Source of the DNA: Candidatus Pelagibacterales bacterium
GTDB lineage: Bacteria; Pseudomonadota; Alphaproteobacteria; TMED109
Direction of reading: 5' to 3'
Length of the DNA: 64,000 bases
NCBI GenBank assembly: GCA_002715505.1
Contig: PAZF01000002.1
Location: forward strand, 1 to 64,000
The notes beneath the pieces are model-generated. The model made no database searches. It saw nothing but the letters and a program-made list of their open reading frames with translations, and was not told where the DNA came from. The translations under genes and the position numbers were made by a program. Positions within the stretch are counted from its first letter, which is position 1, and each line of letters starts with the position of its first letter. This document shows, one piece after another, positions 3,959-34,605 of the stretch.

Positions 3959-4567
3959 TTTGTCCTCCTTTTTAGCCCTATTCCATAGTTTTTCTTTATC
4001 CTTTAAAGACAATGAGTTTATATCTAGGCCTTCCTTTTTTGCTAGTTCTTTTAATTTTTGAAATCTTTTCTTAAATTTATAATTAGCATTATCTAATATT
4101 TCTATAAAGTTATAATTATTCATGTTTGAATAACAATGTAGAGTAAAAATTAAATCTCCTATTTCTTCTTGAATATTAGTATGATTTTTTTTATCTATCG
4201 CATTTTTTAGTTCTATAAACTCTTCTTCTATTTTATTTAAGCAACTTTTATTATCAGGCCAAGTAAAACCTATATTTGAGGCTGCAACTATGAGATCTTT
4301 ACTTGCTAATAATTTATTTTTATCTGTATTTTTATAATCTGTAAATAATTTAAATAATATATATATAATTTCAAAAACATCTTCTTCCTTTAGCTTAATT
4401 GATGAAATAAGCTCCTTATATTCTTTTAAATTAAAGTATTCATTTTTTATATAATTATATAAAGCTTTTCGATCTTTACTCTTTTGAAGAAAATTATATG
4501 AAGGTACTTTCTCTATATTTTTAAGCAGATGGATAACATTAGTTAAAATATTATAATTAGTTCGCAT
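3947..4567 (-). CDS. MazG-family nucleoside triphosphate pyrophosphohydrolase-like protein
   Basis: EEFIELKNAI...NIQEEIGDLIFTLHCYSN and NYKFKKRFQKLKELAKKEGLDINSLSLKDKEKLWNRAK resemble the MazG C-terminal domain. Confidence 0.7.
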   Translation of the reverse strand: MRTNYNILTNVIHLLKNIEKVPSYNFLQKSKDRKALYNYIKNEYFNLKEYKELISSIKLKEEDVFEIIYILFKLFTDYKNTDKNKLLASKDLIVAASNIGFTWPDNKSCLNKIEEEFIELKNAIDKKNHTNIQEEIGDLIFTLHCYSNMNNYNFIEILDNANYKFKKRFQKLKELAKKEGLDINSLSLKDKEKLWNRAKKEDKLPK

Positions 4568-4575
4568 AACATATA

Positions 4576-5337
4576 TTATGTCAAATTTATGTTTAGTCCA
4601 TCATAAGCAGGTTCAACATTTTCTGGACATTTAGAAAGCAATTCTTCGTAATCTAACCAGGCGCCTAAATGTGTTAATATGGCTCTTTTAGGTTTAAACT
4701 TATCAATCCAATGCAAAGTTTGTTCTAAATGCGAATGACTGTAGTGTGGTTCATATCTTACACAATCTACTATCCATAAATCTAAGTTATATAAATACTT
4801 CTCTGATTCTTTAGGAAAAGATTTAACGTCTGTAGAATAAACAAAGTTATTAATTTTAAAACCTAATGTAGTTTCATATCCATGATTTTGCTCAAAAGCA
4901 TAAACTTTGATACCACATACTTTTATTTCATTGTGTTTTATTATATTCACATCTAATGGTGGTTGAAAATAAGAATTATCTTGGGCAAATATATAATCAA
5001 AGCGTGTTTTGAGATCTTTCAATGTTTTTTTAGAGGCAAATACCTGAAGTTTTTCTTTTTTTTTCCACAAAAATTGCCTTAAATCGTCTATGCCATTTGC
5101 ATGATCTGCATGGGAATGAGTCCACAATACAGCATCTAACTTATCTACATTGTTTTTAATTGATTGCACTCTTAAATCAGGCGATGTATCAAATAAAATA
5201 TTTTTATTATTAACATTTGCTAAAACCGATACCCTAGTCCTATTGTTTTTAATATTTTTTGGGTCACAATTTCCCCAATAATTTCCTATTAACGGAACTC
5301 CACCAGATGAACCTGAGCCTAAAATTGTAACCTTCAT
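4576..5337 (-). CDS. MBL-fold metal-dependent hydrolase (PhnP-like)
   Basis: MKVTILGSGSSGGVPLIG; WTHSHADHANGIDDLRQF; position next to tatD-metG. Confidence 0.85.
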   Translation of the reverse strand: MKVTILGSGSSGGVPLIGNYWGNCDPKNIKNNRTRVSVLANVNNKNILFDTSPDLRVQSIKNNVDKLDAVLWTHSHADHANGIDDLRQFLWKKKEKLQVFASKKTLKDLKTRFDYIFAQDNSYFQPPLDVNIIKHNEIKVCGIKVYAFEQNHGYETTLGFKINNFVYSTDVKSFPKESEKYLYNLDLWIVDCVRYEPHYSHSHLEQTLHWIDKFKPKRAILTHLGAWLDYEELLSKCPENVEPAYDGLNINLT

Positions 5338-28367: not shown

Positions 28368-28847
28368 TTAGTTTCTTCTAACCCTGTTAATTGTATCTGC
28401 ATCAATTTTACATTTAGTTTTTATAAATAGAGTATCATCAAGATATTTTGTTGAAAAAATACATTTAGAACCTATAAAATATTTATATATTCCTGTTCCA
28501 TCTATATATGTAGATCTTCCAGCTCCTGCATCCATACTTGTATCAGATCTCGTAAATTCTGACCAAGATTTATCTCCATTCTGATCAATTGCCTCACATA
28601 TCAAATTAAATTCTATGGCAATATCTTTTTTAACTTTTATTCTTCCAAAACAAAATGATTTTCCATAGTTACCTAAGCTATCAGTCCAACCTAAATTATT
28701 TTCATATAATAAATAATAGCTATTATCGCTTAGTACCATTTTTTTAGTTTTTGCCAATCCTATTGAATCTATTTCAAAATTATAGTTAGAATAAGCTGCT
28801 TGGGTAGAAAAGGTAATGAAAAAAAATATTGAAAAAAATAATCTCAT
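28368..28847 (-). CDS. Small secreted protein, C-x16-C family, copy A
   Basis: Signal peptide; GWTDSLGNYGKSFCFG; IDGTGIYKYFIGSKCIFSTKYLDDTLFIKTKCKI; paralogous to copies B-G here. Confidence 0.85.
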   Translation of the reverse strand: MRLFFSIFFFITFSTQAAYSNYNFEIDSIGLAKTKKMVLSDNSYYLLYENNLGWTDSLGNYGKSFCFGRIKVKKDIAIEFNLICEAIDQNGDKSWSEFTRSDTSMDAGAGRSTYIDGTGIYKYFIGSKCIFSTKYLDDTLFIKTKCKIDADTINRVRRN

Positions 28848-28930: not shown

Positions 28931-29020
28931 GGTGAGGTGGCTGAGTGGTCGAAAGCTCCGGTCTTGAAAACCGGCGAACGTGCAAGCGTTCCGTGGGTTC
29001 GAATCCCACCCTCACCGCCA
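28931..29020 (+). tRNA. tRNA-Ser (UGA anticodon)
   Basis: Acceptor GGTGAGG/CCTCACC, anticodon loop CTTGAAA (TGA), long variable arm, T-loop GGTTCGAATCC, encoded GCCA end. Confidence 0.95.
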
Positions 29021-29252
29021 TTTCTGTGGATACTTGCTTTACATTGAATAGGTTTTTTGGACCAATTTAAAAACCAGACAGGTATTTGATGGCAGCTATA
29101 GAGTAAGTTTATTTTGTTAATAAACTATTTCTTTTTAATTAAGATGCTTTTCTATATCGTGAATTTTTTTAGTTTTAAATTCAAGACTATTTTCGTTATT
29201 TTCACTACATCCATATAAAAGAAATATTACTAATAATTTTATATAAAAAATT

Positions 29253-30667: not shown

Positions 30668-30760
30668 ACTGTGAAGTCTGCTGAGTGGTTGATAGCTCCA
30701 GGTCATAAAATACAGGGATCGTACAAGTGTTCGGTTGGTTGGTTTCCAAACCTCACAGTT
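30668..30760 (+). pseudogene. Degenerate full-length tRNA-Ser copy
   Basis: tgtgaagtctgctgagtggttgatagctccaggtcat-aaaatacagg...cgtacaagtgttcgg...cctcacag aligns along the whole tRNA-Ser at 28931-29020. Confidence 0.75.
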
Positions 30761-30796
30761 ATTGTTCAGACATTCTAAATATAATATTATTAAAGT

Positions 30797-31532: not shown

Positions 31533-31614
31533 GATCCTCTTATATTATTTAAATAATACAAGATTTCCTTTCTTACAGAATGATTCATATTAGCGTTTTA
31601 AAAGTCGTGGGATT

Positions 31615-31810
31615 CATGTAAATCAATTTTAGGAACATTGCACCAAATAAGCTTTAACTACTCTGTATGATTCTTATATGGAGTCTATTTATTATATCAA
31701 TAATAGATTGTTTTTTATAAAATTTGATTTCTGTAAATCTGCTAACTTAAAAATGGTAGTCAGCTTTTATGAACAAATAATTGATAGGATTAGTTAATTA
31801 AGTTACAATA
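31615..31810 (+). repeat. Upstream repeat module R1, ends in a promoter-like TTGATA-N17-TACAAT
   Basis: Aligns with 32955-33150 over about 200 bp; 3' part shared with 33761-33833 and 34060-34110. Confidence 0.75.
31781..31809 (+). promoter_or_regulatory. Candidate sigma70 promoter TTGATA-17-TACAAT
   Basis: Repeated promoter module; 17-bp spacer conserved among copies. Confidence 0.6.
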
Positions 31811-31858
31811 ACTTTCTGTAATCCTTTAAATTATCATTTATTAATAAAGGAGATATAT

Positions 31859-32056
31859 ATGTTTTTTGGTTGGCTAAAAGGAATTTTAGCAAATATTTTA
31901 ATTGGAATTGGATTAATATCAGTTGTTATGGGTCTTATTGCAACTAGTAATGAAATGAGTGGTACATTTTATTATGTTTTAGGAGCAGTTTTTGGTGCTA
32001 TTGGTTCTTACCTAAAATACGTTTCCAAACAGACTGTTAAATCAGTTAAAAAATAA
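31859..32056 (+). CDS. Small glycine-rich membrane protein (65 aa)
   Basis: Good SD (aaggag) before ATG; two TM segments MFFGWLKGILANILIGIGLISVVMGLI / FYYVLGAVFGAIGSYL. Confidence 0.6.
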   Translation: MFFGWLKGILANILIGIGLISVVMGLIATSNEMSGTFYYVLGAVFGAIGSYLKYVSKQTVKSVKK

Positions 32057-32094
32057 TAAATCTTAATGATAGTTCTACTCTCAATAATCGACAA

Positions 32095-32364
32095 TTAGCC
32101 TATCCAGCATCTTAATATTTTTAAAGAAGTAGCCCCTACTTCTCCATACTCACTATCGTATATTTCCTGTGGCACTTTAAACAGCTTCTCTATCTCTCCT
32201 AGTTTATGTATAGCTTTCAAGTACTCTATTGCGTCTGCTTCATTATAAACACTACAGTTTGTCTCTCCATTAAAGTAAGACAAACCATTATCTACTTTTA
32301 TTATATCTTCAATTTCTTTATTAAAGGTGTGAAAGAACAATTTATACCTAACTACATATTGCAT
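32095..32364 (-). CDS. Hypothetical protein orf89 (89 aa)
   Basis: ORF with a degenerate second copy at 33630-33767. Confidence 0.5.
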   Translation of the reverse strand: MQYVVRYKLFFHTFNKEIEDIIKVDNGLSYFNGETNCSVYNEADAIEYLKAIHKLGEIEKLFKVPQEIYDSEYGEVGATSLKILRCWIG

Positions 32365-32634
32365 GTTTTGTGTTCGTAATTAAGAAAGAAAAGGTTTATG
32401 AAAAAAAATTAAAAATAAACTACCCTATGTGATTCTTAAGATTCTTATATTGAGCTATAAATTAATCATTAAATTAAAATATTTTAAAAAAAAGAATCTA
32501 TTAAATTAAATTAAACTCAATAAAACTGGCTTTTTAAAAGCTAAATTTAAGATAGAAATTTTAATTTTTTCTTTCTTGCTTTGCTACTTTAAATATCATA
32601 TGTTTTTTAGTTTATTATCAAAAATTAATTATTA

Positions 32635-32847
32635 ATGGCTTGGTGGTATTATATAATAATTTGGTTCATTAGCTTTGGTATACCAATTTCTTGTTTTCAG
32701 TGGTTTTTATCAGATAGATACAACCTTAATGGGGAAACACTAGATTCCAATCAAATGCTTAGATTTCTATCTATTTACATAGCTACAATGATATTTGCGA
32801 CTTTAGTATGTATTTTGATAGCAATATTGTTTGGTATTCCATCTTAA
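32635..32847 (+). CDS. Small hypothetical membrane protein (70 aa)
   Basis: Two hydrophobic segments; ORF inside the duplicated patch. Confidence 0.4.
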   Translation: MAWWYYIIIWFISFGIPISCFQWFLSDRYNLNGETLDSNQMLRFLSIYIATMIFATLVCILIAILFGIPS

Positions 32848-32867
32848 ATCACATAATTTTGAGATTT

Positions 32868-32940
32868 AGTAATTAAGTGAAGTTTTTATAGCAGTCAAAA
32901 ATACAGGCTTGAAAACTAACAAACCCTTACACTAGACAGA
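32868..32940 (+). pseudogene. Second, more decayed partial tRNA-Ser copy
   Basis: agtgaagt...agcagtcaaaaatacaggcttgaaaacta...cttacac resembles the 5' two-thirds of tRNA-Ser, including the CTTGAAAAC anticodon loop. Confidence 0.4.
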
Positions 32941-32954
32941 AAAAATAATTCATA

Positions 32955-33150
32955 TAGGTGTTTTTAAGATCAATAGAATTCACGTAAATACATTTTAGGT
33001 TTGTATAACCTAACAAATAAACTTATACAACTCATATGACCTTGTATGGAATATATTTAATATCTCTATAATAGTCTTTGTTTTGTTTTTTTTCAGATAG
33101 CTTCTATGTCAGATAATTGATAGTGTTAGTAAATTAAGTTGAGGAATCTT
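32955..33150 (+). repeat. Upstream repeat module R2, directly before secreted copy C
   Basis: Aligns with R1 from the 'attcAYgtaaat' segment through 'ataattgatag...ttaagtt'. Confidence 0.7.
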
Positions 33151-33171
33151 AACAGTGAGTTATAGTGAACT

Positions 33172-33603
33172 GTGAAAATTTTTTATATATTAATAATATT
33201 TTTTTTGAATATAAGTAATTCATATTCTAAAAGTTACGAGTTGGAATGGACAGGAGATATGGAATTTACAAAAAGCATAACATATCAAGATAAAAGTATT
33301 TTTAAAATTGTTCATCCAAAAGGTTATTGGAAAGATAGTGATGGTAATTTTGGAAATTTTAGCTGTCTAGGATGGGTTAAAAATATAAAAGATAAAGAGA
33401 TTTTAGAGGTAAATTGTGAGGCACTAGATAATGAAAACGATAAATTTTGGGTTATATTAAATAGAAATTCTGAAATAGGCGCAGGTGTAGGCGTTTCAAC
33501 TTATATTGATGCTACTGGTAAATATAAAAAATTAATTAATAAAAAGTGCAAATATGCAATAAACTATTTCCAAACTGGATTTTTTTACAAACAAGTATGC
33601 TAA
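33172..33603 (+). CDS. Small secreted protein, C-x16-C family, copy C (GTG start)
   Basis: YWKDSDGNFGNFSCLG; IDATGKYKKLINKKCKYAINYFQTGFFYKQVC; ends exactly at the second Cys. Confidence 0.82.
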   Translation: MKIFYILIIFFLNISNSYSKSYELEWTGDMEFTKSITYQDKSIFKIVHPKGYWKDSDGNFGNFSCLGWVKNIKDKEILEVNCEALDNENDKFWVILNRNSEIGAGVGVSTYIDATGKYKKLINKKCKYAINYFQTGFFYKQVC

Positions 33604-33629
33604 ATATATTTATAGATAAAAACTTACCA

Positions 33630-33767
33630 ATCTAAGATCTCAATATCTTAAGGTTAGTAGCACCTACCTCCCCATTCTCAATATCACATATTTCCTCTGG
33701 TACTTTGAAAAGCTTTTCTATGTCGCTGAGTTTATGTACAGTTTTCTTTCACTCTAATACATCTGCT
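33630..33767 (-). pseudogene. Degenerate copy of orf89 (C-terminal part)
   Basis: ccaatctaagatctcaatatctt...ctcaatatcacatatttcctctggtactttgaaaagcttttctatgtcgctgagtttatg is alignable with 32095-32239. Confidence 0.75.
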
Positions 33768-33804
33768 AACTTAAAAATGCAGTCAACTTCTATGAACATA
33801 TAAT

Positions 33805-33833
33805 TGATAGGATCCGTTAATTAAGTTATAATT
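33805..33833 (+). promoter_or_regulatory. Candidate sigma70 promoter TTGATA-17-TATAAT (module R3)
   Basis: Consensus -10 and near-consensus -35 at optimal spacing, within the repeated module. Confidence 0.7.
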
Positions 33834-33846
33834 TAAAAATATAATA

Positions 33847-34020
33847 ATGAGTATAAAAAATTTTATAAAAATTATAACTGTGCTTAATTTATTTTTAATT
33901 AGCTGTAGTGATGAAAATCATAATAAAAGTAATTATAAAAAAAAAACTAGTATACCTATAACAGGTCAATCAATAGATAAAAAAGTTAACCCTAGTAAAA
34001 AAGTAAGTGACTTTTATTAA
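33847..34020 (+). CDS. Small putative lipoprotein (57 aa)
   Basis: MSIKNFIKIITVLNLFLISCSDENHN...: lipobox-like LISC; immediately downstream of promoter module R3. Confidence 0.5.
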   Translation: MSIKNFIKIITVLNLFLISCSDENHNKSNYKKKTSIPITGQSIDKKVNPSKKVSDFY

Positions 34021-34081
34021 TTATTAATAAGCGATAAGGAAATAAAAATTAACATAGAAATCTACTTTTATGAAGCGGTGA

Positions 34082-34110
34082 TTGATTGGATTTATTAATT
34101 AAGATATTAT
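34082..34110 (+). promoter_or_regulatory. Candidate sigma70 promoter TTGATT-17-TATTAT (module R4)
   Basis: Same module; -10 ends 6 nt before the ATG of copy D. Confidence 0.6.
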
Positions 34111-34116
34111 TTTTTT

Positions 34117-34605
34117 ATGAAAAATCTATTAATTATATTTTTTGTTTTATTTTTATCCTCACTATCGTCCGATGATTATAAAATAGATATACATGGTAAA
34201 ATTGTTAACAGTTTAAAACATAAATATTCTAATAATAGTTATTATAGTATTTTAAAATTAGATGGAACATTTACTGATAATTTTAGTAATTACGGAAATT
34301 TTAACGCATTAGTAAGTTTAGAAATAGATAATAGTGAACTTAAACAACATTTTTTTTCTGCTGAACTAACATATCAGGACGGGTCCATTTTTTATGGACA
34401 AGGTTCAAGAACTAGTAGAGAATTTGAACAAGGTATTGGTAAACTATTAATTACAAGTGCAAATAAAAGATTGACAGAATTAGTAGGAGTAAAATGTGTT
34501 TATGCAATAAATTTTTTTAGAAGTACTTCTTTTACTCTTACAAAATGCAAAATTACTAATAGCCAAAAAGAAGCACTTAGTAATATTTCTTCAAACAAAG
34601 AATAA
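34117..34605 (+). CDS. Small secreted protein, C-x16-C family, copy D
   Basis: FTDNFSNYGNF; LTELVGVKCVYAINFFRSTSFTLTKCKI. Confidence 0.83.
   Translation: MKNLLIIFFVLFLSSLSSDDYKIDIHGKIVNSLKHKYSNNSYYSILKLDGTFTDNFSNYGNFNALVSLEIDNSELKQHFFSAELTYQDGSIFYGQGSRTSREFEQGIGKLLITSANKRLTELVGVKCVYAINFFRSTSFTLTKCKITNSQKEALSNISSNKE

Follow-up and report, generated by a model that had tools for sequence, protein, structure and literature searches.

A repeat with a putative promoter at the junctions of small gene units in a marine alphaproteobacterial island: a candidate site of cassette exchange

Described systems of small mobile genes

Integrons and CALIN arrays (PMC8618304) are built of tandem, mostly single-gene units in the same orientation, with a repeated site between them; a site lies beside a tyrosine-recombinase gene, arrays without a recombinase also occur, and the cargo is mostly of unknown function. 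In the dif modules of Acinetobacter plasmids, small genes lie between short recombination sites and are shuffled as units (PMC6449649). Islands with repeated tRNA ends are known from aquatic bacteria, among them the additive flexible genomic islands, which are variable and contain repeated partial tRNA copies (PMC4119200, PMC10872708). Tycheposons, in the account given by PMC10872708, combine a tRNA, a tyrosine recombinase and cargo in streamlined aquatic genomes, and measure 4-200 kb. Such streamlined ocean bacteria have small, highly variable islands that are rich in unknown secreted proteins, and they pose the question of how single genes enter such islands and are expressed at once.

We analysed a stretch of 64,000 nucleotides (henceforth the window) in which a module of about 46 bp, AGCTTCTATGAACAGATAATTGATAGGATTAGTTAATTAAGTTAT, recurs before small genes. 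The arrays formed by this module here and in related genomes share with integrons and CALIN each of the features listed above, but their recombinases are not IntI, the site is without an attC hairpin, the module carries a putative promoter for the next gene, and the coding 3' end of one recombinase (INT1) is itself the site. Unlike the Acinetobacter dif modules, this one is without dif similarity, its neighbouring copies are direct repeats, and its arrays are chromosomal. The likeness to additive islands is borne out at tRNA-Ser(TGA), where the module is a second, non-tRNA junction sequence that includes a predicted promoter; in place of the long tycheposons there are units of 0.3-2.5 kb, joined at the promoter-bearing site. 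A small literature search found no promoter-bearing, non-tRNA joint at recombinase 3' ends.

The module copies and their island

Judged from its sequence, the host island belongs to the additive type, with tRNA-Ser(TGA) as its hotspot. The 3' part of the tRNA is repeated, as a trait of the island and not of the module, in five loci from other genomes of the family (L056, L057, L063, L064 and L072; L-numbers denote such loci throughout) and in the window (Table 1). A strong case can be made for repeated integration at this one tRNA. Partial copies of tRNA-Ser(TGA) are seen in L056, L057, L063, L064, L072 and L075, about 2 kb apart and most of them from tRNA position 10; those in L056, L063 and L072, which begin at that position, are near-intact. 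At the Rfam gathering score, the window contains no known RNA family other than a tRNA. A likely chromosomal dif site lies about 25 kb from the island, at 4563-4586 on the + strand (CGCATAACATATATTATGTCAAAT; lineage form CGCATAACATATATTATGTTAAAT), and in genome G004 dif and the tRNA-Ser(TGA) island are likewise on one contig. Positions 1-2000, at the contig edge, have a GC content of 0.39 (0.23-0.32 elsewhere in the window), and the N-terminus of the GroEL frame found there is odd; this end is possibly chimeric or a contaminant.

Table 1. Features of the island segment, in window coordinates
Feature	Position	Strand	Description
tRNA-Ser(TGA)	28931..29020	+	the island's tRNA; ARAGORN, Rfam
tRNA-Ser(TGA), partial copy	30671..30763	+	decayed, integration relic; 73% identity to 28932-29022
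Block B1, copy 1	31564..31709	+	nhmmer E 2e-40; follows INT3 gene in relatives
INT1-type tyrosine recombinase, 3' coding end	31735..31797	+	relic; reads SANLKMVVSFYEQIIDRIS, then stop
Module copy 1	31761..31809	+	-35 TTGATA 31781-31786, -10 TACAAT 31804-31809; precedes 65-aa membrane protein
65-aa membrane protein	31859..32056	+	ORF; no Pfam match above cut-off
89-aa protein, family f4	32095..32364	-	second copy decayed, 33627-33757, left of module copy 3
70-aa membrane protein	32635..32847	+	ORF; ortholog in L057 beside B1
Block B1, copy 2	32942..33077	+	decayed; nhmmer E 1.8e-17
Module copy 2	33098..33145	+	TTGATA 33117, degenerate -10 TGAGGA; precedes secreted copy C
Secreted copy C, family A1	33172..33603	+	ORF, GTG start
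Module copy 3	33784..33832	+	TTGATA 33804-33809, TATAAT 33827-33832; precedes 57-aa lipoprotein
57-aa lipoprotein, family f24	33847..34020	+	ORF
Module copy 4	34062..34110	+	decayed; TTGATT 34082, TATTAT 34105-34110; precedes secreted copy D
Secreted copy D, family A1	34117..34605	+	ORF

A preliminary description of this DNA had reported four repeated sites with a 17-bp spacing between hexamers. All four are present, three of them exactly where it put them; in copy 3, TTGATA begins 1 bp earlier, at 33804 and not at 33805. The hexamers alone are unremarkable: TTGATA-N17-TATAAT with up to two mismatches occurs 35 times on the + strand of the window. We scored the 64 kb with a nucleotide profile trained on 36 module copies of other genomes, the window's own genome being excluded. 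Copies 1, 2 and 3 reached 44.4 bits (E 6e-13), 25.6 bits (E 4.5e-7) and 41.9 bits (E 3.6e-12), and when the 28-40 kb region was shuffled 60 times with its dinucleotides preserved, no score exceeded 8.8 bits. Profile and shuffles thereby rule out AT-rich composition, raised earlier as a possible source of the repeat, for three of the four sites, but copy 4 scores only 10.7 bits (E 0.019) and is weak by itself. Its -35 hexamer stands exactly 35 nt before the ATG, and it aligns with copy 1 across 94 nt; copies 1 and 3 are 85% identical across 60 nt. The conserved block begins about 20 bp upstream of the -35 hexamer.

A search of the whole genome and of its relatives, as proposed in the preliminary description, gave convincing copies in the window's own genome only locally, and about 45 module places (E<=1e-4) in 11 of 29 genomes searched from the family, which is marine and alphaproteobacterial; three of its eight genera are represented. 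The consensus is CTCTTTTGCCAGTCAGCTTCTATGAACAGATAA-TTGATA-GGATTAGTTAATTAAGT-TATNAT-6 nt-ATG. Modules stand mostly in tandem, same-orientation arrays of small genes: the orientation is the same in 24 of 26 neighbouring pairs, several of them spaced 440-720 bp apart. When the exact 20-base core was searched in one genome for each of 85,462 species, it matched records of this one lineage (AG-919-G06, AG-919-A04, AG-430-C17, AG-390-K05, SP279, MED606 and TMED62, labelled Rhodospirillaceae, Rickettsiales or Alphaproteobacteria) and also unrelated records, e.g., Haemophilus, in which the likeness ends at the 20-mer.

Flanking sequences and recombinase genes

Among 23 module pairs with homologous right flanks, the left flanks are no more alike than shuffles in 22; conversely, in 44 pairs with homologous left flanks, the right flanks are unrelated in all but one or two. 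These pairs are not independent events: they reduce to about ten clusters on the right and four to five on the left, and one of the right-hand pairs arises because copies 3 and 4, neighbours in the window, overlap. Counted from the first T of the -35 hexamer, homology begins at a median of -19.5 in the right-sharing pairs and ends at a median of +24 in the left-sharing pairs, which places the junctions inside the module; nearly all pairs share the stretch from about -6 to +12. The control, ortholog pairs without a module, has homology onsets scattered from -297 to +63 of the ATG. In each of four genomes (window, L062, L066 and L111), the 57-aa lipoprotein has a module and the same right side, but its left side is a different one every time. 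What lies right of module copy 2 recurs in L057 and L105 behind 150 bp of differing upstream sequence; the succession of copy C and antisense f4 is common to L057 and the window (f4 is decayed in the latter). A unit that extends from f3 to a 166-aa gene stands behind INT1 in one genus, whereas a second genus has it in an island at tRNA-Ser(GGA).

Simple segmental duplication within this genome is insufficient to explain such a pattern: other genera have orthologous units that agree on the right side and differ on the left. The earlier idea of promoter duplication or capture is right in that a promoter-bearing module precedes small envelope genes and that pieces have moved, but the module itself is the exchange point; nor are the downstream genes all different, as had been stated, since the secreted copies C and D form one family among otherwise different small envelope genes. 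Exchange of gene units at a promoter-containing site fits better than a copied promoter because the module occurs in 11 genomes and at or behind recombinase 3' ends, its left half is kept without a gene, and its flanks assort independently.

We therefore read the module, with a slightly better than even chance of being correct, as an integron-like site of cassette exchange by recombination and a promoter in one. The sequence shows small units, most of them one or two genes long, joined head to tail at sites of about 46 bp; in relatives, a first site coincides with the 3' end of a tyrosine-recombinase gene beside a tRNA or lies behind it, which is the place of attI in an integron. A unit joined to the right of the site would acquire a -35/-10 promoter with its start point on the unit's own ATG, and could be expressed alone from a leaderless or nearly leaderless mRNA: a swapped-in gene would tend to bring its own switch. 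The units would travel as DNA circles, the promoter would fire, and a site-specific recombinase would act at the module; the best candidate is the INT1 type, for the sole reason that the end of its gene contains the site. A stricter form of this reading, to which we give somewhat less than an even chance, is a capture system apart from integrons, in which units of one or two genes would be inserted by tyrosine recombinases other than IntI, at a site overlapping the recombinase's own 3' end, and the site would provide each unit with a promoter for leaderless expression. Joint and promoter in one site would be a concrete answer to how genes enter with immediate expression, the site would be a tag for spotting such arrays in single-cell genomes, and integron-like gene capture would have arisen outside IntI/attC.

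The main rival is a serious one, even if we consider it rather unlikely: the module would be a conserved promoter and linker between the mobility genes and the cargo of small tRNA-integrating islands, and ordinary homologous or illegitimate recombination would swap the cargo with no dedicated recombinase, much as at the module boundaries of mosaic phages. The same junction statistics follow from it, the islands lie at tRNAs, which may be what their recombinases use, and the conserved block measures 40-60 bp; this length suffices for rare homologous exchange. Less expected under this alternative are the tandem single-gene units of about 570 bp in L059, each with a site and without a recombinase fragment, and the sites kept before opposite-strand genes in L074, L062 and L059.

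Cassette exchange is also favoured by the position of the module relative to recombinase genes. INT1 is an intact tyrosine recombinase of 422-427 aa next to tRNA-Tyr (Pfam Phage_integrase and Arm-DNA-bind_3), and in two genomes (L074 and L068) its coding 3' end is the left half of the module, the protein ending in ...TALGSYTSANLKMAVSFYEQIIDRIS before the stop; in one case, the recombinase C-terminal reading encoded by the left half is ...SFYEQIIDRIS, then stop. The module stands directly after the stop of INT2, a 543-aa recombinase (L060), behind the 140-bp block B1 that follows INT3 beside tRNA-Ser(TGA) (L072), and in L062 after an integrase, an AlpA-like gene and an HTH gene. The gene order INT3-B1(-module) is found in L069 and L072; in L069, the B1 adjoining INT3 is without a module and the next B1 has one. 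Over 20 residues, the relic in the window has 90% identity with the C-terminus of INT1 from L074 (E 1.7e-6); with this reading and B1 still present, module copy 1 is a relic of recombinase 3' regions. A primary site by a recombinase gene thus occurs in relatives (INT1, INT2 and INT3-B1 of L072) but not in the window, and a tyrosine recombinase with cargo at a tRNA likewise in relatives (tRNA-Ser(TGA)-INT3, tRNA-Tyr-INT1) but not in the window's array, in which no recombinase gene is left. That array is a decayed one, its orphan sites lying next to tRNA-Ser(TGA).

Only 2 of the 29 genomes have an intact INT1; the window's own genome has none above E 1e-20, its tRNA-Tyr locus being cut by a contig end, and phage records hold only distant INT1 relatives. 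INT1-type genes at tRNA-Tyr have repeats resembling arm sites on their 5' side, and from this position and these repeats INT1's own attachment site may be the tRNA, not the module. No clear symmetric recombinase-binding arms were demonstrated in the module. An empty-site search with the sequence to the right of L068's intact INT1 met no counterpart in other genomes, and the tRNA-Tyr loci, considered as empty sites, are heavily rearranged among genomes. The motif TGATAGGRTTA, which would link the left end of INT1 to the module, is striking in 660 kb of loci and unspecific genome-wide (4-9 matches per genome in several relatives); we reject it as a link and retain it as a weak hint. Related P4-type integrases at tRNA-Ser(GCT) in three genomes (L207, L208 and L209) have larger cargo but lack the module, which therefore is not a companion of every integrase. 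Where the module is absent, B1 ends at an identical model position, 127-128 (L069 4761-4888, L056 8691-8818 and L072 15645-15772); B1 may hold a second junction point.

Promoter, further alternatives and cargo

By sequence, the module has the marks of a sigma-70-type promoter: -35 and -10 hexamers 17 bp apart, with the start at the gene. The distance from -35 to ATG is exactly 35 nt, the commonest value, at 16 of 35 same-strand sites and before five protein families; an ATG 35 nt from the start of the -35 hexamer implies a leaderless mRNA. Of 26 sites that have a gene on the same strand less than or equal to 60 nt away, 20 match TATAAT in at least five of its six positions. In family A1, a -10 box at ATG-12 is present in 86% of the ATG-start genes preceded by a module and in 31% of all A1 genes without a module, vs 17% of other genes. 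A TAnnnT box 12 nt before the ATG was seen in 17% of ordinary genes vs mostly 2-11% at other offsets (sampled genes, family loci); given this enrichment in ordinary genes too, leaderless starts look common in these genomes, and the pattern suggests widespread leaderless transcripts in the family.

Where a same-strand gene within 60 nt is lacking, the block -20..-1 holds 1.25 bits per base vs 1.23 with such a gene and the -35 hexamer 1.39 vs 1.53, whereas the -10 box is lost (0.35 vs 0.71). Part of this left-half conservation without a gene is inherited from the coding ends of INT1. These data bear on a further alternative, namely that the block is an ordinary sigma-70-type promoter whose upstream activator site governs a regulon of secreted proteins, and that it was copied along with genes by duplication. 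Such a promoter would agree with the good -35 and -10, the fixed 35-nt spacing to the ATG, the conserved upstream 20 bp and the paralogy of several cargo genes, but the left half is still kept at the 11 of 46 modules that have an opposite-strand ORF next to them, it is a recombinase coding end, and the module is common to unrelated genes in other genera with differing left flanks. We disfavour this explanation as improbable.

Transfer of units by the host's XerC/XerD at dif-like sites, as in Acinetobacter, would suit short sites flanking single-gene units and an island at the above distance from dif, but is most improbable, as neighbouring sites are in direct orientation and the best match of the module to the lineage's dif arms, 13/22, is at chance level (equalled by 484 of 1000 shuffles).

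The array was also compared with integrons proper, and both the IntI and the attC test failed. Against the integron-integrase model TIGR02249, INT1, INT2 and the L062 integrase had no match at E 1e-3, and INT3 scored 30.5 bits, below the cut-off of 265. On neither strand does the consensus module fold into an attC-like structure better than its shuffles do (z +1.70 and +1.40), and z for the window copies is -0.24 to -0.63.

In the segment of Table 1, we count as cargo the 65-aa and 70-aa membrane proteins, the f4 protein, the f24 lipoprotein and secreted copies C and D. The cargo of the window includes no known defence genes. Its two f4 copies form a 74% DNA repeat, and f4 recurs in the arrays of relatives. 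The main cargo is A1: this genome has 27 matches to it, and a relative as many as 57. Members in the window lie at 28368, 31041, 33172, 34117, 36385, 44367 and 52142, and others are seen in relatives. A1 matches no Pfam family, and in 61 genomes searched it is absent outside this bacterial family. Structure prediction (mean pLDDT 89) makes it a small secreted beta-barrel that resembles, with modest scores, the DUF3237, DUF3224 and dirigent-type barrels.
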